Assembly: GCA_937907245.1 (NCBI GenBank)
Contig: CALCUM010000003.1
Location: 186,001-250,000 of the forward strand
Direction of reading: 5' to 3'
Source of the DNA: an uncultured Rhodobiaceae bacterium
Lineage (GTDB): Bacteria; Pseudomonadota; Alphaproteobacteria; RS24
DNA: 64,000 bases
This document shows, piece after piece, positions 36,972 through 64,000 of the stretch. The notes under the pieces are model-generated. The model saw nothing but the letters and a program-made list of their open reading frames with translations. It had not been told where the DNA came from and made no database searches. The stretch's first letter is position 1, and each line of letters begins with the position of its first letter. The translations under genes and the position numbers were made by a program.

Positions 36972-38540
36972 TCAGGCGGTCAGACTATCCGGCGCCTGTT
37001 TTTCTCGTTTAATCAACAATTTGTTCAAAGCACTAATATAAGCTCGTGCCGAGGCGACCATTGTATCTGTATCAGCGGCGCGGCCAATCACGGTTTTACC
37101 GCTTTCTTCCAAACGCACACTCACTTCAGCTTGTGCATCCGTACCTTGTGTCACGGCATGGACTTGGTAAAGCTGCAAATCTGCTTCATGCGGGAACAAA
37201 GCCTTAATCGCATTGAACGTCGCATCGACGGGACCGTCGCCTGTGCTTTCTACTTCGGTTTCTTTGCCGTCAATATCGAGTTTCAAAACCGCCTGTTGAG
37301 GGCCGTGCGAGCCTGCAACAACCCGCAAAGACACAAGCTTGATACGGTCGATACCTTTGGCAACTTCATCATCAATCAACGCGATAATGTCATCATCAAA
37401 CACATGTTTTTTCCGGTCGGCCAGCTCTTTAAAGCGCACAAACGCCTCTTGCAACTGGTTGTCACCCAATTGATAGCCCAGATTATTAATTTTATCGCGA
37501 AACGCATGGCGCCCTGAATGTTTGCCCATAACCAAGGAGGTTTTGGAAATACCCACACTCTCAGGCGTCATAATTTCATAGGTCTGATTATTCTTCAGCA
37601 TTCCATCTTGGTGAATACCGCTCTCATGCGCGAACGCATTCTGGCCCACAATCGCCTTATTGTATTGCACTGGAAAAGCGGTCACCGACGACACTAACTT
37701 AGAGGCACGAGACAGCATTTGCGTCTCGATGTTGGTCCATTGTGGCATCAAGTCATTGCGCACATTCATCGCCATAACAATTTCTTCCAAGGCCGCATTG
37801 CCCGCACGTTCGCCAAGACCGTTAATGGTGCATTCGATTTGGCGCGCGCCGGCGCGAACGCCAGCCAAGGAATTGGCAACCGCCAGTCCCAAATCATTAT
37901 GGCAATGCGTAGAGATAATCGCTTTATCGATATTCGGGACACGCTCGCGCAACATGGTAATCATCTCAAAATATTCCTGCGGCATCGTATAGCCAACAGT
38001 GTCTGGAATATTAATGGTCGTCGCGCCAGCTCGAATGGCGGTTTCGACGCTGGCACATAAGAAATCATGGTCTGTGCGGGTCGCGTCTTCTGGCGACCAT
38101 TCCACATTGTCGGTATGATCACGCGCGCGCGCTACCGAAGTTGCAATGGCTTCCATTACGTCTTCCGGTTCCATTTGCAATTTGTGTTTCATATGCACAG
38201 GACTGGTAGAGATAAACGTATGGATGCGCGGGTTTTTGGCGTGTTTTAACGCATCTGCCGCCCGGTCGATATCTTTGGCACCGGCGCGCGCCAAGCCACA
38301 TACTTGGGCATTTTTCACTAATTTCGCGACTTCGCTTACGCTTTCAAAGTCACCGTTCGAGGCAATGGGAAATCCAGCTTCGATAACATCGACACCCATT
38401 GTGTCCAAAGTTTCGGCAACTTGCAGCTTTTCTTCTAAAGTCATAGAAGCGCCTGGCGACTGTTCGCCATCGCGCAAAGTTGTGTCAAAAATATAAATGC
38501 GGTCGCTGGCAGCGCCTGTTTGTTTTGTTGAGTTGGTCAT
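36972..38540 (-). CDS. leuA: 2-Isopropylmalate synthase
   Basis: Condenses acetyl-CoA and 2-oxoisovalerate, the committed step of leucine synthesis. The 522 residues carry the DRE-TIM signature [21 protein letters not shown] in part ([14 protein letters not shown]), the metal site [29 protein letters not shown], and a C-terminal leucine-feedback domain from about 390. This is the class related to E. coli LeuA. AAGGATGATGAA precedes the ATG. A leader peptide with clustered Leu codons lies 110 bases upstream, indicating attenuation. mreB follows immediately on the same strand. Confidence 0.97.
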
Positions 38541-38611: not shown

Positions 38612-38656
38612 ACCCCCTGAGAACGCGCCTTGCATGGGCCTGTCCGATCTCAGGGG
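38612..38656 (-). promoter_or_regulatory. Attenuator-like stem overlapping the leader stop codon
   Basis: Nine-base perfect arms (CCCCTGAGA at 38656-38648 and TCTCAGGGG at 38620-38612, minus strand) are separated by 27 bases. The 5' arm contains the leader stop TGA, so a ribosome finishing the leader would cover it. No T-run follows the 3' arm (it continues GTGATTTAGG), so the stem is not itself an intrinsic terminator. It may be the anti-antiterminator of an attenuator, or may act with Rho. Confidence 0.55.
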
Positions 38657-38793
38657 CAGGTTAGGAGAAGGATGGTAAGTAAGTCGTTTGGCCGAACCAA
38701 TTTCTTGCTCTCGCCCGAGGCCGCGCGCAAACTCGCACCACCGCCAGAAGGCAGTGTGTGTAAGGAGTTTGTAAATTTGGCCTGAGCCATCAT
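38650..38793 (-). CDS. leuL: Leucine leader peptide upstream of leuA
   Basis: A 47-residue frame too short for ordinary gene calling. It begins MMAQAKFTNSLHTLPSGGG and ends PNDLLTILLLTCP, with five Leu codons (TTA CTT, then CTT CTC CTA) within seven codons of each other close to the stop. The ribosome site AGAGG lies 8 bases before the first ATG. The TGA is in the 5' arm of a nine-base stem. Clustered Leu codons just before a stop and a competing RNA stem upstream of leuA are the standard signature of leucine attenuation. The first 30 residues are longer than in the enterobacterial leader, so an internal start is possible. Named by role, not by homology. Confidence 0.75.
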   Translation of the reverse strand: MMAQAKFTNSLHTLPSGGGASLRAASGESKKLVRPNDLLTILLLTCP

Positions 38794-38961: not shown

Positions 38962-39894
38962 TCAGTTGGCCTCTCGCCCCGCCAAAGCGGCCGCGCGTTC
39001 GCTGACGTGCTGAATTAGGAAGTCCATCACAGTTCGGACATGCCCAAGGCGCGCCAAATCAGCTCTGGTGAGCAGCCATAACTCTAGGTTGCCGACTAAA
39101 TCAGGCCCAATGAGCTGCACCAAACCCGTTTGCGGTTGGGCAATAAAACACGGCAAAGCGGCTAAGGCCTCGCCTCCGAAGACGGCATTCATCCGAGTGG
39201 CCACGCTGGACGAGCGCATGACCACTTTGGCGTTTTTTTCCGCTCGCGAAAGCCACCAAACTGGCCCCAAGGGGCGCTCTTCTTCCGAAAATGCGATGAC
39301 TTGGTGACCCGATAAATCGCCACCGCTATTTATCTCTCCAAATTTCTTTACGTAGGCAGGCGTCGCGTAAACGCCATAAGCCACATCGCAAAGCTTGCGG
39401 GCCAGCATGTCGCCTTGCGTGGGGCGTGCCAAGCGCAAAGCAACATCAACATCGCGCAGCACATTCATCACCCTTGGCGCTCCCCCCGGGCCCGATAGAC
39501 TAGGATCCGTGATGATGTCGAGGGCAATATCGGGCGCGGTTTTTAAGAAACTTGGCACCGCAGGGCCCACCAAGCCCCCAGCCACTACATCGCTGGCAGA
39601 CAGGCGCACAATACCACCGTAAGCTCCTGAATCTGCTTGAAAATCTCTTTGTAGCGACGAAAGGCTGGTATCCACCGGCTCCAACGATTGTAGCAACCGA
39701 GTGCCATCTTGCGTAAGCGTATACCCGCTGCGGAGGCGCTCAAAAAGCCGCGCTTCTAGGGCCGCCTCCAAATTGCCGATGCGGCGCAACACCGTGGTGG
39801 TGTTGACGTTTAACTCGCGGGCAGCCGCCGACAGACTACCTGCTGCAGCCACCGCGAGAAAAAACCGTAAATCGTCCCAATCAAGATCTTTCAT
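38962..39894 (-). CDS. LysR family transcriptional regulator
   Basis: A 310-residue regulator. The N-terminal winged helix is clear (MKDLDWDDLRFFLAVAAAG, then SLSAAARELNVNTTTVLRRI), followed by a linker helix and a LysR-type effector-binding domain of about 200 residues. The TTTVLRRI variant places it in the group where recognition-helix residues differ from classical members (usually SQPALS). It follows the buf operon's doxX gene by 63 bases on the same strand, with a 41-base palindrome between them. It lacks an obvious ribosome site. Its targets may be the buf genes or itself. Confidence 0.93.
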   Translation of the reverse strand: MKDLDWDDLRFFLAVAAAGSLSAAARELNVNTTTVLRRIGNLEAALEARLFERLRSGYTLTQDGTRLLQSLEPVDTSLSSLQRDFQADSGAYGGIVRLSASDVVAGGLVGPAVPSFLKTAPDIALDIITDPSLSGPGGAPRVMNVLRDVDVALRLARPTQGDMLARKLCDVAYGVYATPAYVKKFGEINSGGDLSGHQVIAFSEEERPLGPVWWLSRAEKNAKVVMRSSSVATRMNAVFGGEALAALPCFIAQPQTGLVQLIGPDLVGNLELWLLTRADLARLGHVRTVMDFLIQHVSERAAALAGREAN

Positions 39895-39905
39895 AATCGC
39901 AACAA

Positions 39906-39946
39906 CTTAGCTGCAAAAATGCAAGATTGCAATTTTGCAACTTAAG
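39906..39946. promoter_or_regulatory. 41-base imperfect palindrome in front of the LysR gene
   Basis: Left arm CTTAGCTGCAAAAATGCAA mirrors right arm TTGCAATTTTGCAACTTAAG with about three differences, around a centre at GAT. It contains three copies of TTGCA or TGCAA. It lies 12 bases before the LysR start codon. No T-run follows the arms, so an operator for the LysR protein (T-N11-A type half-sites) is more likely than a terminator of the preceding buf operon. Confidence 0.6.
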
Positions 39947-39957
39947 CTTTGCGAAAA

Positions 39958-40521
39958 TTAGCGTTTTCGGTCGAGGTTCAGAAAATTATCGAGAGACAAA
40001 CGCCCCGCCCCTTTGACCACAATAACAGCCAACACAAACACCCAAAGTAACCGCTGGTCTAGAATGAGCGAATCCGAGGTTCGGTCAAACCAAGCGCCGA
40101 TTGTGGCTGCTTCGGCGCCGTGGCCCCAAATATCGGTTAACGACTGCACAATCACAAACCCCGCCATCGCCAAGGCGGCGCCACGGGTAAACAGGCCGAC
40201 CAGCAAGAGGGCTGGCAATATAAACTCGGCCCAGCTACCCAATAAAACGATGGGCGCAAAGAAAAGAGAAATCGCGTCCGTGTCATATTCGGCAGCTTGC
40301 GTGATGCTGGGTAGAATTTGGTAATAGGCACCAATCGTTGGGGTGAAAACACCTTCCAATTTGGTCATGGCTGAGGCCCAGTAATAGCCCGCCAAGACGG
40401 CCACAAACGTAAAGCGGGCTGCCAAGGGAATAAACCATTCGCCAGCTGCTTCCCCTATTCGGTTCATAACCTTGAGATAAAGCGATAGGCTATCGCGGCA
40501 GTATTGTTGGAATTTTGTCAT
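39958..40521 (-). CDS. DoxX family membrane protein of the bufferin operon
   Basis: A 187-residue inner-membrane protein of the DoxX family with four hydrophobic segments (about 30-50, 85-110, 115-135, 155-172). The N-terminal region is hydrophilic. DoxX-like proteins are frequent fourth members of buf operons next to a DUF692 enzyme and DUF2063 partner, which is the arrangement here (13 bases downstream of the DUF2063 gene). Their role there is not established; electron transfer or maturation at the membrane has been proposed for the family in general. Confidence 0.88.
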   Translation of the reverse strand: MTKFQQYCRDSLSLYLKVMNRIGEAAGEWFIPLAARFTFVAVLAGYYWASAMTKLEGVFTPTIGAYYQILPSITQAAEYDTDAISLFFAPIVLLGSWAEFILPALLLVGLFTRGAALAMAGFVIVQSLTDIWGHGAEAATIGAWFDRTSDSLILDQRLLWVFVLAVIVVKGAGRLSLDNFLNLDRKR

Positions 40522-40534
40522 TATTTTTCCTCCA

Positions 40535-41311
40535 TTAAAGTTTGGTTTCTGGTTTGGTTTGAAAGACGGCGGTCACTAGCCCAGCCCCGACGAGATGCGA
40601 TAAAAGCCAAGCCATATCTGCCTCTTCCATCGCTCGTTCATCGAGTGCGGCTTGACCAGCCACCGAGAGCGACTTCCCAGCCAGTAGAGCGGCCAGAAAG
40701 GCCTCCCCTCCGGCAGGCAGAGACACTAATTCGATATCAAAATCTTGCGTCCGATAGACCAAAAGCGATTGACTGAGGCTCATATCTTGCGGCGCATCTG
40801 TGCGGTCGACTAAAAACGTCCATAAATCATGCAGTGGCCAATCCGATATCACTAGCTGCACGCATGGCGCCAACCGCAGACCTTGCGTATCTGGATCACT
40901 GAGCTGCAACTCGGTTTCCACATCCGCATCGCTGGCATGGCCCGCGTGGCGCATGGCCAGCTCAAGGCGCGCCACGTCGGCCGCATAGGGCACTTCAGCA
41001 AACGGCTGGAATTGACGAATGAAATCGGGCAGCGCATCGCCATAGGCAAACATTAAGGGCGAGCGCGGCGGGTGGGTGCGCACGAAATCATCGGCTAAGG
41101 CATCAAACGCCTCGTCACCCAAGAGTGCCACGAGGAGCGGAAAGCCATCCGCTAGGTTTTGCTTTAACGAAACCACCACATTATTGCGATAAATAGAAAA
41201 CCGCTCGACGGCAGCCTGGCCTTTTTGAGGGTGAGAAAAGCCGCGCGGCACCTCCGCCGTGGGCTCGAATAAGGCCTGTAAAAAAGCAGCTTGCTGGGTC
41301 ATGCGACACAC
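40535..41311 (-). CDS. bufC: DUF2063 partner protein of the MNIO enzyme (BufC-like)
   Basis: A 258-residue protein with an N-terminal DUF2063 putative DNA-binding/recognition domain: QQAAFLQALFEPTAEVPRGF, followed by RFSIYRNNVVVSLKQNLADG and FPLLVALLGDEAFDALADDF, which are the family hallmark. In bufferin and related peptide pathways this protein recognises the precursor and partners the DUF692 enzyme. It overlaps the DUF692 gene by 13 bases. The C-terminal half is variable. The DNA-binding label of the family is historical and not supported by context. Confidence 0.88.
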   Translation of the reverse strand: MCRMTQQAAFLQALFEPTAEVPRGFSHPQKGQAAVERFSIYRNNVVVSLKQNLADGFPLLVALLGDEAFDALADDFVRTHPPRSPLMFAYGDALPDFIRQFQPFAEVPYAADVARLELAMRHAGHASDADVETELQLSDPDTQGLRLAPCVQLVISDWPLHDLWTFLVDRTDAPQDMSLSQSLLVYRTQDFDIELVSLPAGGEAFLAALLAGKSLSVAGQAALDERAMEEADMAWLLSHLVGAGLVTAVFQTKPETKL

Positions 41312-42183
41312 GCCTTTGGATGTTCTTTATCCGCGCTGAAACGGTTCAAAATAGTTTCCGCCTTGGCGCACTCCGCTTGTAAGACCGTCCATTCTGGGAC
41401 ATTCGTATCCCATTCGATAAGACTTGGGAGAGGCCCGCTGACCGCCAGTAGCTTCTCATATAACTCCCAAACAGGTGGCGCCACAGGGCCACCATGATTG
41501 TCGATAAGCACCGTGTTGCCCGACGCATCAACATCGCTGGCATGGCCGGCCAAATGCACCTCGCCAATAGCTGCAAGAGGCAGCCCGCGAAGATAATCAT
41601 CGCAGCACCAGCCGAGGTTCTGGCAGGTAACAAAAATATTATTCACATCCAGCAACAATCCGCAGCCAGACTGTGACACCAAAGCGCTGAGGAAATCGGT
41701 TTCCGCGGCAGCGCTATCGCAACCCTCGGCCGCCAAATATAACGACGGGTTTTCGATTAGAATTCTGTGCCCCAAAGCCTGTTGTGCAGCTTCAATATTT
41801 GCGCTCACACGGGCCAAAGCCTCTTGGCTATAGACCACCGGCAGCAGGTCGTTGGCGAAAGTCGCCTGCCCATTGGCGCTATGCATCGACCAAGCCAGGT
41901 GTTCCGAAAATTGGGCGGGCTGCAGCTCATCTATCAGGCGTCGCAAACGCGCCAGATGGTCTGCATCCGGCGCGCTTGTGCCGCCGAGCGAGAGCCCCAC
42001 GCCATGCAGCGAGATGGGCATATGCGAACGCAACTCAAAAAGCTGCGCTCGCATGGATCCACCATCCATAAGATAGTTCTCAGCATGCACTTCCGCCCAC
42101 CCGACTTGCCCTTTAGAGGCCAGCAGATCAGCAAAGTGACACGGCTTAAAACCAACACCAACGGTGCATGGAAGATTGGTCAT
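41299..42183 (-). CDS. bufB: DUF692 multinuclear iron enzyme (MNIO, BufB-like)
   Basis: A 294-residue TIM-barrel enzyme of the DUF692/MNIO family, which modifies cysteines in ribosomally made peptides (to oxazolone/thioamide or thiooxazole in characterised members). Candidate metal ligands occupy the expected places: E31/H33/E35 in WAEVHAENYLM, H60 in SLHGVGLSLGG, E144 in ILIENPS, D179/N181 in LLLDVNNI, H210 and H214 in EVHLAGH, and D228/H230 in IDNHGGP. It starts 17 bases after the precursor gene. Together with that DUF2282 peptide it identifies a bufferin type 1 operon. Confidence 0.93.
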   Translation of the reverse strand: MTNLPCTVGVGFKPCHFADLLASKGQVGWAEVHAENYLMDGGSMRAQLFELRSHMPISLHGVGLSLGGTSAPDADHLARLRRLIDELQPAQFSEHLAWSMHSANGQATFANDLLPVVYSQEALARVSANIEAAQQALGHRILIENPSLYLAAEGCDSAAAETDFLSALVSQSGCGLLLDVNNIFVTCQNLGWCCDDYLRGLPLAAIGEVHLAGHASDVDASGNTVLIDNHGGPVAPPVWELYEKLLAVSGPLPSLIEWDTNVPEWTVLQAECAKAETILNRFSADKEHPKACVA

Positions 42184-42200
42184 TTTCGTCGGAGGTCGAC

Positions 42201-42503
42201 TTAAGCTGGGTCGCGTTTTAGCGCTTCCAGCGAACCATGACGACGCATGCCATTACTTTGTTTTGGCAGGCTAATTTTTTCGCATTTTCCGACCTTCATA
42301 AATTTCCAGGCATTGCCTTGGTAATCTACTTTTGACGTACCGGCACAGCTGGTACCTGGCCCTGCGGCGCAATCATTTTTACCAGCTTTGGAAACACCGA
42401 AACATTTTTCGCGTTTCTTAGCCTCAGCAGGTGTGACAGACATAGTTCCAACGGCCACAGCGAATGCACTGGCAACGAGGAGAGAGGTTGATAGAAGTTT
42501 CAT
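42201..42503 (-). CDS. bufA: DUF2282 bufferin-type precursor peptide
   Basis: A 100-residue exported peptide. The signal sequence (1-28, ending TPAEA) precedes a core with four cysteines: C34, C45, C53 and C74, in [26 protein letters not shown] and VGKCEKI. The pattern is that of DUF2282 bufferins, peptides whose core cysteines are modified by the adjacent DUF692 enzyme and which bind copper in the periplasm. A tail of about 25 residues ([20 protein letters not shown]) follows the fourth cysteine and looks longer than usual. AAAGGG precedes the ATG. It is the first gene of the operon. Confidence 0.92.
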
Positions 42504-42628
42504 ATTAAATACCCTTTCTTTTATTTTTAGGCAGTTTTACCTTATCAATAGTCCGCAAGAAGACAAGAGCCAACTAGGGCTCGCTCACGAATAAGACTTG
42601 TAAGGAGATAAGTTTAAGGAAGCGTAAA

Positions 42629-44416
42629 CTAGAAGAACCGCTTGATGCCCAGCTCAAAAAACTCTTCTTCGCGCTGGCTCGACTTTCGATATCCGGCCGT
42701 CATCCAAAGAGCAGATGAAGGCGCCAAATCCATCTGAAAGTCATACTTAAGCTCCGAAACACCGTTGTGCTCTTGTGTGTCTGGATAGGTGCGAGTGAAA
42801 ACAAGAGCGCCCCTAGTTGCAAAAACTTGTTTGACTAACAAACCTGCTTCAATCTCACCGAACGCCCATGTGTTATGGCTTTTATTGCTTCTCACGCCGC
42901 CACCCATAAAGCCGTAAGCCGTCACATCAGGGGATAAAGAAAACCCAACCCCATAGGCACCGCCAAGATTGGCTGTCAATGGGCGTTGCAGCGCACCGTC
43001 GACAAAACGCCGAGCGCTGAAGTCAAACTTGAACGAATACGCATCGGAATATTTTTGTTTCGGCACAACAGACTTGAGAGACAAGACCACGAACTCTTCT
43101 AACCGGACATCATCGTCTTGCATATCTACCGACATGGTGACCTGCGCTAACACGTTCTCTTGTTGGGCGAAATAAGCATCTCGATTGTCCATAAATTGCC
43201 GTGCTGCTGGCAAGTAGCCAATCTTTAACCTTTCATCCTCGCCGATTTTTTGGATGGAAGAAAACACTTGGCTGTCAGGTTTTATATTCAACGGCGTTTT
43301 ATGATTTTGCAGCCAATACTGGCTTGGGTTAATGTTTTTGAGAAGCAACGCACGCTCTAAGCCTCGATGGTTTTCCAAGGCTCTGTCTTGCGTAATTTTA
43401 TTGGTTGAAAACAGGTCCTCATTCAATGCCTGTGCGAACACCAATTCATTTGGAGAAAAATCACCATATTGATTGGGCGCACCGTCCTTCGTCAGGGTCT
43501 TTTCTATGTCTGAGGCTGGAAACCCCAACGAGCCGCCGAGCGATCGGAAGACCCAATCCCTAGAGGGCACTGCTTTGGTCTGTTGCTGCGAGATAGCCGA
43601 CGCCTTTTTAAACAAATCTATTGGCGTTACAAAACGCTTAGCCCGCTCGTAGCCACCTGAACTTGCGATCGCAAGCAGTCGATCCAGAAAGGTGGCGCAA
43701 TTAAAGGAAATAAACAAATACTCAGGCGCAGCCAGCCTTAGCTCCCAAATATGAAGCTGGGTCAAAAGACGGGATTCTGCAGTCATCTCAATTTCGACTT
43801 CCCAAATGCTGCGCTCCCCAACATCGACATAATCAATAATCATTTGCTCATACGGGCCGAGGGCTACATGGCCATCTCGCCCCGTAAAGAGGATGCTTGT
43901 AAGCAACCCAGGAAGATTGAAAGTGTTAATATTGGTAAAGAAAGAAATGGCGTAGGAAACATTTTCTGCATCTTCGTTAAGCCCCTCCATCTTCAAGAAA
44001 GAATGGCCCATAATGGACGCAGGTGCATTCAGCTGTTCCGAAGCAAATACAAGCGACAGCCTATCAAACGGTACGCGGGCCAAAAATTCTTGGAGTTCGC
44101 CACAGTCAGACAATAAAGCACTCGGGTCTCGGCCTGTAGCACGCGCAACAATATGAGCTCGTGCTGGAAAGTTGCAGACCCAGTCATTATCACCGACTTT
44201 CAACCGCTCGTCATACTCATTAAAAAGCTTTTTCTGCAGGGCGACTTCATGCCTATTTGGCCAAGACGCCTCCACGCCGTATTTTGTGTCCGTCGGCAAG
44301 GATACAATCCCTGACCAGACGTCTGGAGGCGACAGGTCCAGCGCTTGCACTAAGCCTGAGCATACAAATAATGCCAGAAAGTTAAGTCGTAAAACCGACA
44401 TCAAGAAATGCATCAA
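42629..44416 (-). CDS. DUF4105/Lnb-type periplasmic thiol enzyme with C-terminal barrel-like domain
   Basis: A 595-residue exported protein. After a signal sequence (1-25) comes a DUF4105 (Lnb N-terminal periplasmic) domain with its marks: VCNFPARAHIV (C81), MGHSFLKMEG with H138, and ISFNCATFLDRLL with C240, a Cys-His pair in a papain-like arrangement. Members include Lnb, a lipoprotein N-acyltransferase of Bdellovibrio. From about residue 420 it has alternating strands ending in EEEFFELGIKRFF, with a terminal Phe as in outer-membrane barrels. It starts 8 bases after a small lipoprotein gene, so a lipoprotein substrate nearby is plausible but unproven. Confidence 0.85.
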   Translation of the reverse strand: MMHFLMSVLRLNFLALFVCSGLVQALDLSPPDVWSGIVSLPTDTKYGVEASWPNRHEVALQKKLFNEYDERLKVGDNDWVCNFPARAHIVARATGRDPSALLSDCGELQEFLARVPFDRLSLVFASEQLNAPASIMGHSFLKMEGLNEDAENVSYAISFFTNINTFNLPGLLTSILFTGRDGHVALGPYEQMIIDYVDVGERSIWEVEIEMTAESRLLTQLHIWELRLAAPEYLFISFNCATFLDRLLAIASSGGYERAKRFVTPIDLFKKASAISQQQTKAVPSRDWVFRSLGGSLGFPASDIEKTLTKDGAPNQYGDFSPNELVFAQALNEDLFSTNKITQDRALENHRGLERALLLKNINPSQYWLQNHKTPLNIKPDSQVFSSIQKIGEDERLKIGYLPAARQFMDNRDAYFAQQENVLAQVTMSVDMQDDDVRLEEFVVLSLKSVVPKQKYSDAYSFKFDFSARRFVDGALQRPLTANLGGAYGVGFSLSPDVTAYGFMGGGVRSNKSHNTWAFGEIEAGLLVKQVFATRGALVFTRTYPDTQEHNGVSELKYDFQMDLAPSSALWMTAGYRKSSQREEEFFELGIKRFF

Positions 44417-44424
44417 TTTTAGAA

Positions 44425-44820
44425 CTAATTAAGGTTACACCGGATGACCAAATTATCCCTATAGTTCCACATCTTTCCGTTCAGATAGTCTAGGGCAGGG
44501 CTGGAAGGAATGCCACTTGAGGAGGTAACCCCAAGGATATTCCACACAAACTCGCCACTTATCTGCCTATCGACTGTGGTGGTGGGCAAACAGTCAGAAT
44601 TATCGACATGAATCCTTACTGGGTGGGAGTTTATCTTTACAATTTCGACATCGCCGGGAACCTTAAAAATGGTTCCGTCAGAGAGCCTTGCTTCAAAAGT
44701 TGCGTCATTCGAAGCGCGGACGGTTAAAATTTCAGAATCCTCGCCCAGCATGGTCGCACAGCCCGCCATCAGAAATCCTACCGAGAATATAAGGCCAAGA
44801 TTTTTTATTATTTTTTGCAT
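44425..44820 (-). CDS. Small lipoprotein, paralogue of the next upstream gene
   Basis: A 131-residue lipoprotein with lipobox MAGC (C21) after a hydrophobic signal. The mature part shares with its upstream neighbour the pattern CAT-x-x-G-x-DS, L-[TS]DGT-x-x-K-[VI]-PG, [NH]PV, DC-x-P and DY-x-x-GKMWNY, ending in a Cys. The fold resembles PEGA-like cell-envelope lipoproteins (short beta-sandwich), with two conserved cysteines that may form a disulfide. ATG 44820 rather than 44853 gives the signal peptide. It sits 8 bases upstream of the DUF4105 enzyme and is probably translated with it. Confidence 0.8.
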   Translation of the reverse strand: MQKIIKNLGLIFSVGFLMAGCATMLGEDSEILTVRASNDATFEARLSDGTIFKVPGDVEIVKINSHPVRIHVDNSDCLPTTTVDRQISGEFVWNILGVTSSSGIPSSPALDYLNGKMWNYRDNLVIRCNLN

Positions 44821-44835
44821 TTTTTTATCCCAAAA

Positions 44836-44868
44836 AATTGGGGAGGCGCACACATTGGTGCCCTCCCC
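44836..44868 (-). terminator. Intrinsic terminator between the two lipoprotein paralogues
   Basis: Eleven paired bases (GGGGAGG-C-GCAC with GTGC-CCTCCCC, one bulged C) enclose a 6-base loop. On the minus strand the hairpin is followed by AATTTTTTGGG. It lies 15 bases after the first lipoprotein gene and 20 bases before the second, so much of the transcript may stop there. Confidence 0.8.
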
Positions 44869-44883
44869 ATGTATTTTATTCCC

Positions 44884-45255
44884 TTAACCGCGGCAAATCA
44901 CGGTCACGTTTGACGCATAGTTCCACATTTTACCGGTAATATAATCTGTGCCTGAACCCAGAAGGCCACCACTAATTAAATTTCCCCAAAATGCTGGTTC
45001 CAATGAGCGAGTAACATTTGTGACAGGCGAGCAATCTCGCTTGTTGACAAAGACTTGCACTGGATTGGAGTCTGTTTTTTGAATTACAACTGGACCGGGA
45101 ATCTTAACTGGGGTTCCGTCGGTCAGTCGCCCTTTAACCATTTTGTTGTCCGACGTGCGAATATTTACGGTCTGAGAATCGGGTCCGAACAAGGTAGCGC
45201 AGCCAGAAAGGCTTACTGCCAAAACGATGGTGCTTAAGAAAATTTTCGTATTCAT
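44884..45255 (-). CDS. Small lipoprotein (first of a paralogous pair)
   Basis: A 123-residue lipoprotein with lipobox LSGC (C19). The mature chain reads CATLFGPDSQTVNIRTS onward and carries LTDGTPVKIPGPVVI, the NPVQVFV strand, DCSPVTNV, and DYITGKMWNYASNVTVIC. Two mature-chain cysteines (in DCSP and the final VIC) match those of the second copy. GGAG lies 8 bases before ATG 45255; the in-frame ATG at 45267 is less likely. Outer-membrane or inner-membrane location cannot be read; the residue after the lipobox Cys is Ala, so no Lol avoidance signal. Confidence 0.8.
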   Translation of the reverse strand: MNTKIFLSTIVLAVSLSGCATLFGPDSQTVNIRTSDNKMVKGRLTDGTPVKIPGPVVIQKTDSNPVQVFVNKRDCSPVTNVTRSLEPAFWGNLISGGLLGSGTDYITGKMWNYASNVTVICRG

Positions 45256-45318
45256 TTTAATCTCCACTTTTTATTGTTTTTATTTTGACTCCTAATTTTT
45301 ATTAATTTGGAGACTTAT

Positions 45319-45344
45319 TTGATAGTAAGAGTTTCTCCTATCAA
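45319..45344. promoter_or_regulatory. Inverted repeat in the divergent promoter region
   Basis: Seven-base arms TTGATAG and CTATCAA flank 12 bases, in an AT-rich 218-base gap between the divergent lipoprotein genes. A shared operator is possible. Confidence 0.4.
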
Positions 45345-45473
45345 GTCAATTGAGCAAATCCAGTCCACCCAAACGACGAGCAACAAAAGCTTACGATTAC
45401 CTTTTCTTTACCCTCCCCAAGCCTTATGCTAGCCAATATCAAAATTGTTTGCTCTGAGAATAAGGGGAACCCC

Positions 45474-46010
45474 ATGCTTCGTATTTTGACAATTAGTAGC
45501 TTTGTTTTATTAACCGCCTGCGCCACGCCGGGCGAAGAGGATCGAGCGGGGTCGTTTTCGGCTGGCCAAGTCAACCAGCGCCAGCAAGTTAAAATTATCT
45601 CTATCCTCTCCGTCCTGCCCGCAAAAGTAACTGTCGCCAATCGGCGAAATCAGAAGCTCGCTTCTGGCATAGGTGCCGTAGTGGGAGGCCTTTTAGGGGC
45701 TGCCATTGGCCACGATAGCAACCGCTCTTCTGGCGGAGGCGCGCTTGGGGTTATTGCCGGGTCTGAGGCTGGACGCCTTGGACAAGGCTCTACAAAATTG
45801 GTCGATGGAGTACAAATTATCTATCGCGACGGCGAGGAGACTTTATCATCCGCTCAAGTGGCACGCCCTTGCGATTATGCGTTGGGACAGGCTCTACTGA
45901 CTTTTGTTGGAGAAACCCAGACCCGCATTCAATCCAACCATGACTGCGTCAAAGGCCAAGAGCAGCAGCTCGGCCAACTGAGCACCATGCAAGGCGTCTC
46001 TTTAAACTAG
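45474..46010 (+). CDS. Glycine-zipper lipoprotein (SlyB/17-kDa antigen-like)
   Basis: A 178-residue lipoprotein: signal with lipobox LTAC (C16), a variable linker, a glycine-zipper segment (KLASGIGAVVGGLLGAAIGH at about residues 60-79, continuing with GGGALGVIAGSEAGRLG), then a mature C-terminal domain with two Cys. Glycine-zipper 2TM proteins sit at the outer membrane and the best known are SlyB and Rickettsia 17-kDa antigen. ATG 45474 has AAGGGGAA upstream; an in-frame ATG at 45426 gives a poor signal sequence. It is divergent from the lipoprotein-DUF4105 genes and ends at the ilvC terminator. Confidence 0.82.
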   Translation: MLRILTISSFVLLTACATPGEEDRAGSFSAGQVNQRQQVKIISILSVLPAKVTVANRRNQKLASGIGAVVGGLLGAAIGHDSNRSSGGGALGVIAGSEAGRLGQGSTKLVDGVQIIYRDGEETLSSAQVARPCDYALGQALLTFVGETQTRIQSNHDCVKGQEQQLGQLSTMQGVSLN

Positions 46011-46087: not shown

Positions 46088-47116
<1,029 letters not shown>

Positions 47117-61476: not shown

Positions 61477-61689
61477 ATGAAGCCTGAAAAACGCTCCATC
61501 TCTATCGCCGGACACGCCACCAGCGTGTCTTTGGAGCCCGCGTTTTGGGACGCTTTGAAAGATATGGCAGCCGCGCAAGACTGCTCGCTGCCAGACCTCA
61601 TTCGCAAGCTCGACGCCAGCTCTAGAGACGCCAGCCTCTCCAGTACCCTGCGGGTGGCTATTCTAAACTGGGTGCGCTCGGCTTCTTAG
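61477..61689 (+). CDS. Ribbon-helix-helix domain-containing protein
   Basis: A 70-residue protein, MKPEKRSISIAGHATSVSLE onward. A short beta strand (RSISIAGHATSVSLEP) followed by two helices (AFWDALKDMAAAQDCSLPDLIRKLD in overlapping parts, then LSSTLRVAILNWVRSA) is the pattern of the RHH_4 group of alphaproteobacterial DNA-binding proteins that accompany fumC and sspB. It begins 9 bases after fumC and overlaps the convergent AsmA-like gene by 32 bases. Target sites are unknown. Confidence 0.9.
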   Translation: MKPEKRSISIAGHATSVSLEPAFWDALKDMAAAQDCSLPDLIRKLDASSRDASLSSTLRVAILNWVRSAS

Positions 61690-64000
61690 GCGCCTGCAGT
61701 TGAGACACATCTAACTCGACCTTCGGCTTAGCAATGGGGCCAGAGATATCCCACACGAGGTTATTGCCGGGCTGGGCGATCGGTAGTTGGAATTTGGCCA
61801 CCATTTCTTGCGTTACCAAATCGACCTGAGCCTTAAACTGAGCCGAGGCACGCGGCGCCGCAAGGGCGAAATCTGCCGTCGCCGTTTCAACCCGACCATT
61901 GCGGATTTGAGCCACGCCTATGCCGCGTTCAAAAGGTATATCGCCCGCGCCAAGATATTCCCCGACCAAGTCTTTTGCCTTGCCAGAATAATCTGGCGAG
62001 GCTAGAGCCTTGGTCAGGCCCTGCCCATCGATAAAAGTGAACGCGCCCGCGCCCGCATCGACTTGGAGAGATCCAGAGACAGACTCCATCATGGCAGCCA
62101 CCGAGGTGCCGCGCCCGCGCAACGCCAGCGTGCCACGATGCGGCGCATCCCAAACGGAATTCCGAGCGCTTGAGGCCTGCAAAGTCGGCGGTCGTATATC
62201 TGTGAAGCTAGCTTCCAGATTAAAATAAGGATTTAGGCTACCGCCCTCTGCCTGAAGATTGGCCGATAGTTTTCCACCCAGAAATTGCGCGCCCATCTCT
62301 GGCACTTCCAGCACGCCCTCAATCAATTTTAGCCGCGCCATCGCGCTATTTACCGGCACAGAGCCAAAGTTCGCGTTCAGTAAGCGTAAGTTCATATCCG
62401 CATTGGCATACCCCAAAAGAGGCCAAGCCATAGGCGTTTGCGCCCAGCCGGTGCTCGTCCATTCCGGCAAAGCCCATGTGAGGTCTGTGCCATCCAAAAA
62501 AATGTCTGCGGCCAACTGAGGGGCTGCGTCCCCTAGTTGCAAAATCCCGTCGATATTCATTTTTCCATCGCCAAGCTGGCCTTCGAAACCCGAAAATCCA
62601 ATATTCGTTGCCGAGGCGTTTAATTGCCCCCGCGCCGAAGCCGACAGGTTTGACGCGCTCGATTGCACGCCCAATAAGGGCAATATATTGGTTGTGGTGA
62701 AACTCAGCGCCCCCTCCAGACGAGGCCCATCGGCGGAAGGGCGCAAACGGCCCGACACTTGTGCTTTGTCTTCGCTCAAGACCAACTCACCGCGCAGAGC
62801 GGAAACATCTGTGCTTTGGCGATCGAGGGCGACTTCGAGGCGTCCTTGCGCCGAGGCGGGATAGTGCGACGGAAGCTTGAAGGGATGAGCTAAATCGTTT
62901 GCTGAACCATTTAAAATCAGAGAAACCCTACTGCCAGCGACCCCATAATCGAGGGAACGGGACGGTGTTATAATATTAAAATGAGCGCCTAAGTCGCCGA
63001 TTTTACCGCGTCCGGCGAATTTGGCATCGGGCCAATCCGGGGCCTCGGGCGAGCTTAGACGTAGGTTGCCGGATAGAGAAGCGGACGTATCGGCGGCAAA
63101 TGAAATCGGGATAAAGCGGCGCAAGACGGGGGCCGCCAGCTCTTTCAAACGAGAGCTCTCGAGCTGCACATCTATCTCACCATGTGGCAGACCCGTTGCG
63201 TAATCCATTTTTCCTGTGGCGCTAATCTGTGCGCCGCTGAAGTCTGCTAGCTGAACCTCGTCGAGGGTAAGATATTGGTCTTTTACGTGAGCTTCCAATT
63301 GCACCGGGCCAAAGCTTTGCGTGCCCGAATACAGCTGATTTGCTTCCAACCGCAGTTTTACCTGGCGCTTTTCATCTGGTTTTTGCAGCCATGACCCCAT
63401 GGCTCTATGCACAGGGTGCCAAATTGCGGCCAGCTTAAAGTCCCGATTGGTTTGCCCATCGCCTATTCCCCAATCGCTCATATCTAGGCGAGAGAAATTC
63501 AAATCAGCCCCGACATGGAGGGCGGGGCCTTGCCTGACGGAAATTTCGCCAGAAACCCGATCGTCATCTAGGCGTCCCGACAGTCGGGTTAACTGCAGGC
63601 TTTCGTTCGACCAGTCGATATCGCCAACCAAACTAACGCGTTGTAACCGCGAGGGGTCAATACTCTCAGCTAAACCTGAGATGTCGGACGAAAATTGATC
63701 GCTGGCCCATATCATAGCCGCCAACCCATCGGAGCTACGGGCTGAAAAACTGCCCGAGAAAGCAGGTGTTGGGGCTGAAACATCCAGCACCCCGACGGCC
63801 AAGAGGGCGCTACGAAATGGCAGATTGAGGCTTAGGCGTTCGATATCCATTTGTTGGCCGCGCCAATCAAAGGCCAGCAATAAATTACTCCCCGTTTCGC
63901 CACCAAGTTCGAATTGGTTCGCCTCTAGGCGCAACCCCATACCAAGGTCGGGCGCCAAACTGCGCCACAATCGATCGGCGGCCGGCGCCGGAGACGAAGG
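61658..64000 (-). CDS. AsmA-like / YhdP-type envelope protein (5' end outside window)
   Basis: An open frame of about 780 residues enters from the right edge with no stop, ending at 61658. It is rich in alternating beta strands with repeating patterns such as ISVRQGPALHVGADLNFSRL and ASARGQLNASATNIGFSGFE, as in AsmA/TamB/YhdP proteins that bridge inner and outer membranes and move lipids. The C-terminal AsmA_2-type region includes GTLALRGRGTSVAAMMESVS and GAFTFIDGQGLTKALASPD, with the final DISGPIAKPKVELDVSQL. An N-terminal anchor should lie upstream outside the window. No start can be assigned. Confidence 0.85.
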   Translation of the reverse strand, partial: PSSPAPAADRLWRSLAPDLGMGLRLEANQFELGGETGSNLLLAFDWRGQQMDIERLSLNLPFRSALLAVGVLDVSAPTPAFSGSFSARSSDGLAAMIWASDQFSSDISGLAESIDPSRLQRVSLVGDIDWSNESLQLTRLSGRLDDDRVSGEISVRQGPALHVGADLNFSRLDMSDWGIGDGQTNRDFKLAAIWHPVHRAMGSWLQKPDEKRQVKLRLEANQLYSGTQSFGPVQLEAHVKDQYLTLDEVQLADFSGAQISATGKMDYATGLPHGEIDVQLESSRLKELAAPVLRRFIPISFAADTSASLSGNLRLSSPEAPDWPDAKFAGRGKIGDLGAHFNIITPSRSLDYGVAGSRVSLILNGSANDLAHPFKLPSHYPASAQGRLEVALDRQSTDVSALRGELVLSEDKAQVSGRLRPSADGPRLEGALSFTTTNILPLLGVQSSASNLSASARGQLNASATNIGFSGFEGQLGDGKMNIDGILQLGDAAPQLAADIFLDGTDLTWALPEWTSTGWAQTPMAWPLLGYANADMNLRLLNANFGSVPVNSAMARLKLIEGVLEVPEMGAQFLGGKLSANLQAEGGSLNPYFNLEASFTDIRPPTLQASSARNSVWDAPHRGTLALRGRGTSVAAMMESVSGSLQVDAGAGAFTFIDGQGLTKALASPDYSGKAKDLVGEYLGAGDIPFERGIGVAQIRNGRVETATADFALAAPRASAQFKAQVDLVTQEMVAKFQLPIAQPGNNLVWDISGPIAKPKVELDVSQLQAPKKPSAPSLE

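Follow-up and report, generated by a model that had tools for sequence, protein, structure and literature searches.

A Buf1-type bufferin operon at the ilvC-lysR junction of a marine alphaproteobacterial family, with an apparently unrelated LysR neighbour and signs of repeated loss in relatives

We analyzed a 64,000-nucleotide stretch of contig CALCUM010000003.1 (hereafter, the window) from an uncultured Rhodobiaceae bacterium and found that it carries a real, intact, and standard bufferin operon of the known Buf1 type, composed of bufA, bufB, bufC, and a doxX-like gene. Comparison with related genomes indicates that this operon is an accessory insertion at the junction between ilvC and lysR, common to two genera of the family (g1 and g6). 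The adjoining lysR gene, which a preliminary description had regarded together with a nearby palindrome as an unusual regulator of the operon, appears to be an older resident of the locus, a bystander that is not part of the bufferin operon. Close relatives, in turn, have lost the operon repeatedly while retaining the regulator. We consider this account, comprising insertion of a Buf1 operon, a bystander lysR, and later erosion, to be very probably correct as a whole. The coordinates of all features are given in Table 1.

Table 1 Features of the bufferin operon and its surroundings (positions in the window)
Feature	Position	Strand	Description	Basis
ilvC	46088..47098	-	Ketol-acid reductoisomerase, upstream flank of the putative insertion site	NF004017, 535.6 bits; order conserved
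Possible bufA promoter	42539..42567	-	CTTGTC (42562-42567), 17 bases, TAAGGT (42539-42544)	Aligned upstream sequences
bufA	42201..42503	-	Buf1-type bufferin precursor (DUF2282), 100 aa, core C34/C45/C53/C74	PF10048
bufB	41299..42183	-	MNIO enzyme	PF05114 (MbnB_TglH_ChrH)
bufC	40535..41302	-	DUF2063 and RRE-type partner (PME1-like), 255 aa	PF09836
doxX-like gene	39958..40521	-	bufD position	PF07681; position in other buf operons
TTGCA array	39895..39954	-	lysR upstream region, probable autoregulatory promoter/operator	Conserved in 20 aligned family genomes
lysR	38962..39894	-	Apparently resident LysR-family regulator of the ilvC-leuA region	PF00126, PF03466
leuA	36972..38540	-	2-isopropylmalate synthase, downstream flank of the putative insertion site	PF00682, PF08502; order conserved

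Open reading frames and Pfam matches placed the four operon genes and lysR on the minus strand, just where they had been described, in the gene order of Buf1-type operons. The gaps reported between bufA and bufB (17 bases) and between bufC and doxX (13 bases) are right. The overlap between bufB and bufC, reported as 13 bases, depends on a GTG start of bufC at 41311; an ATG at 41302 is the likelier start and leaves a 4-base ATGA overlap between the two genes.

The reading of these genes as a bufferin system was borne out by family models, conserved residues, a fold match, and purifying selection. BufA scored 82.5 bits against PF10048 (Pfam cut-off, 22.4), and its four core cysteines, previously described as intact, recur in 60 or 61 of 61 homologues. 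By eye, the translated N-terminus resembles a Sec-type signal, with a basic start, a hydrophobic stretch, and an AEA/KK site. BufB passed the NCBIfam equivalog model MNIO_BufB (NF050167; 331.1 bits, cut-off 310) and matched the solved MNIO structure 3bww in the PDB (E 3.5e-31). When its residues were aligned with the family, as the preliminary description had proposed, the 11 residues H60, H95, E144, N145, D179, N182, H210, D228, H230, E257, and D259 proved to be kept in at least 65 of 67 homologues. Judged via the 3bww alignment, N182, D228, and H230 seem to correspond to N175, D242, and H244 of HvfB (PMC13419390).

BufC matched PF09836 over its N-terminal part (88.6 bits, Pfam), and its length falls within the 250-260 aa that, together with a DUF2063 and an RRE-type domain, defines Buf1 partners. 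Since a phmmer search against PDB sequences gave no match for BufC, we turned to fold comparison: its AlphaFold2 model (pLDDT 91.8) had 3dee (NGO1945) and 8hi7/8hci (TglHI) as its best Foldseek matches in the PDB. The doxX-like gene matched PF07681 at E 1.5e-4, slightly below the cut-off (22.7 against 23.6 bits), and the HvfX family weakly; it holds the matching position in other buf operons. Overall, the window encodes a normal and probably functional bufferin operon.

The core Buf1 cluster makes a peptide whose central cysteines are modified, with a disulphide joining the outer pair (PMC12452194); the modification of related products has been described as 5-thiooxazole (PMC13097082). By analogy with characterised bufferins, BufC would present the precursor, still bearing its signal peptide, to BufB, an iron enzyme that would oxidise C45 and C53 to thiooxazoles; a disulphide would link C34 with C74. 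The exported peptide may then buffer copper in the periplasm, with DoxX in an auxiliary membrane role. For this organism, we infer both the thiooxazole chemistry and the copper function from those bufferins.

Among the closest known systems are other Buf1 operons, such as CC3254-CC3257 of the Caulobacter sigF regulon, which encodes DUF2282, DUF692, DUF2063, and DoxX proteins; its gene set and gene order are those of the window, and so is the four-cysteine precursor (PMC12452194, PMC3511200). The oxazolin/captophorin systems (HvfABC of Haemophilus, NgoABC, and FonABC) also pair an MNIO with a PME1-type partner, and the fold of BufC matches that of NGO1945 (3DEE); however, their precursors contain EGKCG repeats, whereas the precursor in the window is a DUF2282 four-cysteine protein. 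The closest BufB group in our tree (support 100/97) is that of Rhodobacterales bufferin operons, such as those of Poseidonocella pacifica (L045) and Sulfitobacter (L048), with approximately 50-55% identity. These share the bufABC-doxX order of the window but are not located at an ilvC-lysR junction and have no LysR gene after them.

We next consider the lysR gene. An orthologue was detected in 21 of 28 family genomes, directly upstream of leuA in every case (21/21), and with ilvC on its other side in all of them except G001, where the contig ends, and G012. In 17 of these 21 genomes the junction holds no intact buf operon; such an operon was present there only in G000, G005, G016, and G019, although the comparison genomes are mostly draft assemblies, in which a gap could pass for an absence. 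The ilvC-lysR interval measures 97-119 bases in genus g4 and 136-157 bases in g3. In two g3 genomes (G013 and G023), a buf operon is found at another place, with no LysR gene adjoining it. Among 61 buf loci from outside the family, there is no case of a same-strand LysR gene immediately following the operon. In Pseudomonas weihenstephanensis (L072, 7610-9108), a different LysR-type gene stands tail-to-tail with the doxX of a buf operon.

The region between lysR and leuA has features of its own. A leader ORF (38650-38793, minus strand) upstream of leuA ends in ...DLLTILLLTCP* and overlaps the first arm of a CCCCTGAGA/TCTCAGGGG hairpin (38614-38656, minus strand). The leucine-rich tail of this leader is kept in 21/21 family genomes, which suggests leucine attenuation; the leader has no Rfam match.

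The element described as a 41-base palindrome (39906-39946) is imperfect, pairing at only 11 of 20 positions when ungapped, and is better seen as part of an inverted repeat of 58 bases (39897-39954), likewise imperfect, in which 21 of 29 positions pair. This repeat ranks second in the window, the strongest of its length (61961-62018, 23 of 29 paired) apparently lying within the reading frame 61658-63970. The sequence is an array of TTGCA units with an 8-bp period that ends at the lysR start codon. Over 20 aligned family genomes, it reads GCAA-N8-TTGCA-N3-TTGCA-N3-TTGCA-N3-TTGCA, followed by TTGCAATTATG at the start codon, and is kept in genomes with or without buf genes; G012 has a diverged form, and in G002 (L124) there is one additional 8-base TTGCGTAT unit, an apparent unit duplication. 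Allowing one mismatch, the 1.8 Mb genome contains no second TTGCA array, near bufA or elsewhere, and a position-weight scan of the window revealed no second strong site. We also examined a possible LysR site at bufA by means of the TGCAANNTTGCA dyad and rejected it: the sole other match, at C2:428827, was taken as a chance occurrence because it lies in a coding region. The array is most likely the promoter and operator of lysR itself, through which the gene would be autoregulated, and TTGCAA-17-TAAGTT is a possible promoter within it. The resident LysR, placed between ilvC and leuA and equipped with a promoter/operator of its own, would not control buf through this site, although it could act on buf through a site of a different kind, or its level could rise by read-through from buf.

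The latter arrangement is the strongest alternative, albeit an unlikely one: lysR would keep its own role but be co-transcribed from the buf operon, such that a stress inducing buf raises LysR as well. The gap between doxX and lysR is just 63 bases, with no strong terminator found in it, while relatives that lack buf genes at this junction, such as G013, have a GC-rich hairpin and T run before the lysR promoter that looks terminator-like by eye. Yet a weak terminator-like stem is present at the 3' end of doxX (39992-40012), and the conserved lysR promoter region could suffice for expression.

Far less credible is the notion that LysR is a copper-responsive (or other) regulator of buf and the palindrome its operator. 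It is true that wherever the family has an intact operon at the junction (four genomes), lysR is its immediate neighbour and is read in the same direction. Nevertheless, the same LysR stands between ilvC and leuA in relatives without buf, where the array persists as its upstream region; the buf operons of G013 and G023 lack a neighbouring LysR; the arrangement is absent from all 61 outside loci; and the array sits beyond the doxX end of the operon, 2.6 kb away from bufA, which has no copy of its own. The earlier proposals of a LysR regulator and of an operator belonging to the operon are therefore not upheld.

As for the control of buf itself, a possible promoter precedes bufA (Table 1). The matching place in G005 reads CTTGTT-17-TATGGT. 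G000 and G005 would thereby have a plain, sigma-70-like layout in common; a consensus promoter scan did not pick up the candidate. The Caulobacter Buf1 operon, by contrast, is under sigma-F/NrsF. In the window genome we found no NrsF (linked sigma-F/NrsF genes occur in some, but by no means all, Buf1 clusters and do not define the type); two ECF region-4 sigma matches are both unlinked to buf; and the sigma-F motif GTAACC-N16-CGAA occurs as often as expected by chance, with no match before bufA. Rfam revealed no known RNA at the locus, only two weak matches far below their cut-offs.

Because lysR and its array stand at the junction in relatives without buf, we regard the operon as the inserted element. 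In the BufB tree, the g1 and g6 sequences form one clade (98/94) inside the Rhodobacterales group. The tree of neighbouring genes is compatible with one insertion that preceded the g1/g6 split, although its fork placing g4 outside is weak. The operon probably entered before that split and has since eroded in place several times. Other accessory genes occupy the same junction in the window, namely a Lnb_N/DUF7840 protein (42629-44416), a glycine-zipper protein (45426-46010), and, between these, two small lipoprotein-like proteins (44425-44853 and 44884-45267). In G005 the contents of this interval (window 42629-46010) are different.

Buf remnants were detected at the ilvC-lysR junction of G001, G003, G004, G008, and G022, all inside contigs apart from that of G001, whose contig ends just upstream of the remnant. 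In G022 (L130), residues 1-45 of bufA are joined to residues 134-180 of doxX, a fusion that stems from a single deletion internal to the operon. G003 retains the tail of doxX. The doxX pieces of G001 and G004 are larger, and their breakpoints differ. G008 has part of a broken bufC together with a full-length doxX, and the junctions of G002 and G007 end, by eye, in what appear to be the last codons of doxX. These patterns require at least three separate losses in place: one in G022, one on the G001/G004 side, and one in the clade of G002, G003, G007, and G008. The breakpoints suggest more than three, in a count limited by the draft assemblies.

That the operon is itself decaying in the window genome is very improbable: relatives carry truncated remnants at the same site, and BufB and BufC are more diverged than neighbouring genes, but all four frames are open with key residues intact, and dN/dS between the two intact g1 copies (the window and G005) is 0.034 for bufA, 0.111 for bufB, 0.203 for bufC, and 0.090 for doxX. 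Such values, spanning 0.03-0.20, indicate that the intact copies, including that of the window, are under purifying selection.

As to why the operon eroded, one might speculate that copper stress was lost in a streamlining marine lineage, and that doxX outlasts bufABC through a separate function and not merely through its adjacency to the lysR promoter. The full-length doxX beside the broken bufC of G008 is a pointer in this direction, but we consider the idea doubtful. A literature search on bufferin gene loss in marine bacteria found nothing relevant.

Our analysis adds a bufferin operon for a family of marine Alphaproteobacteria with small genomes, and it disposes of the idea that a LysR protein regulates bufferins, which was a false lead. 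That the operon was lost repeatedly at one site is a more informative result than the operon itself with its bystander regulator: intact copies, partial deletions, and empty sites at a single junction form a natural series on when bufferins are worth keeping.
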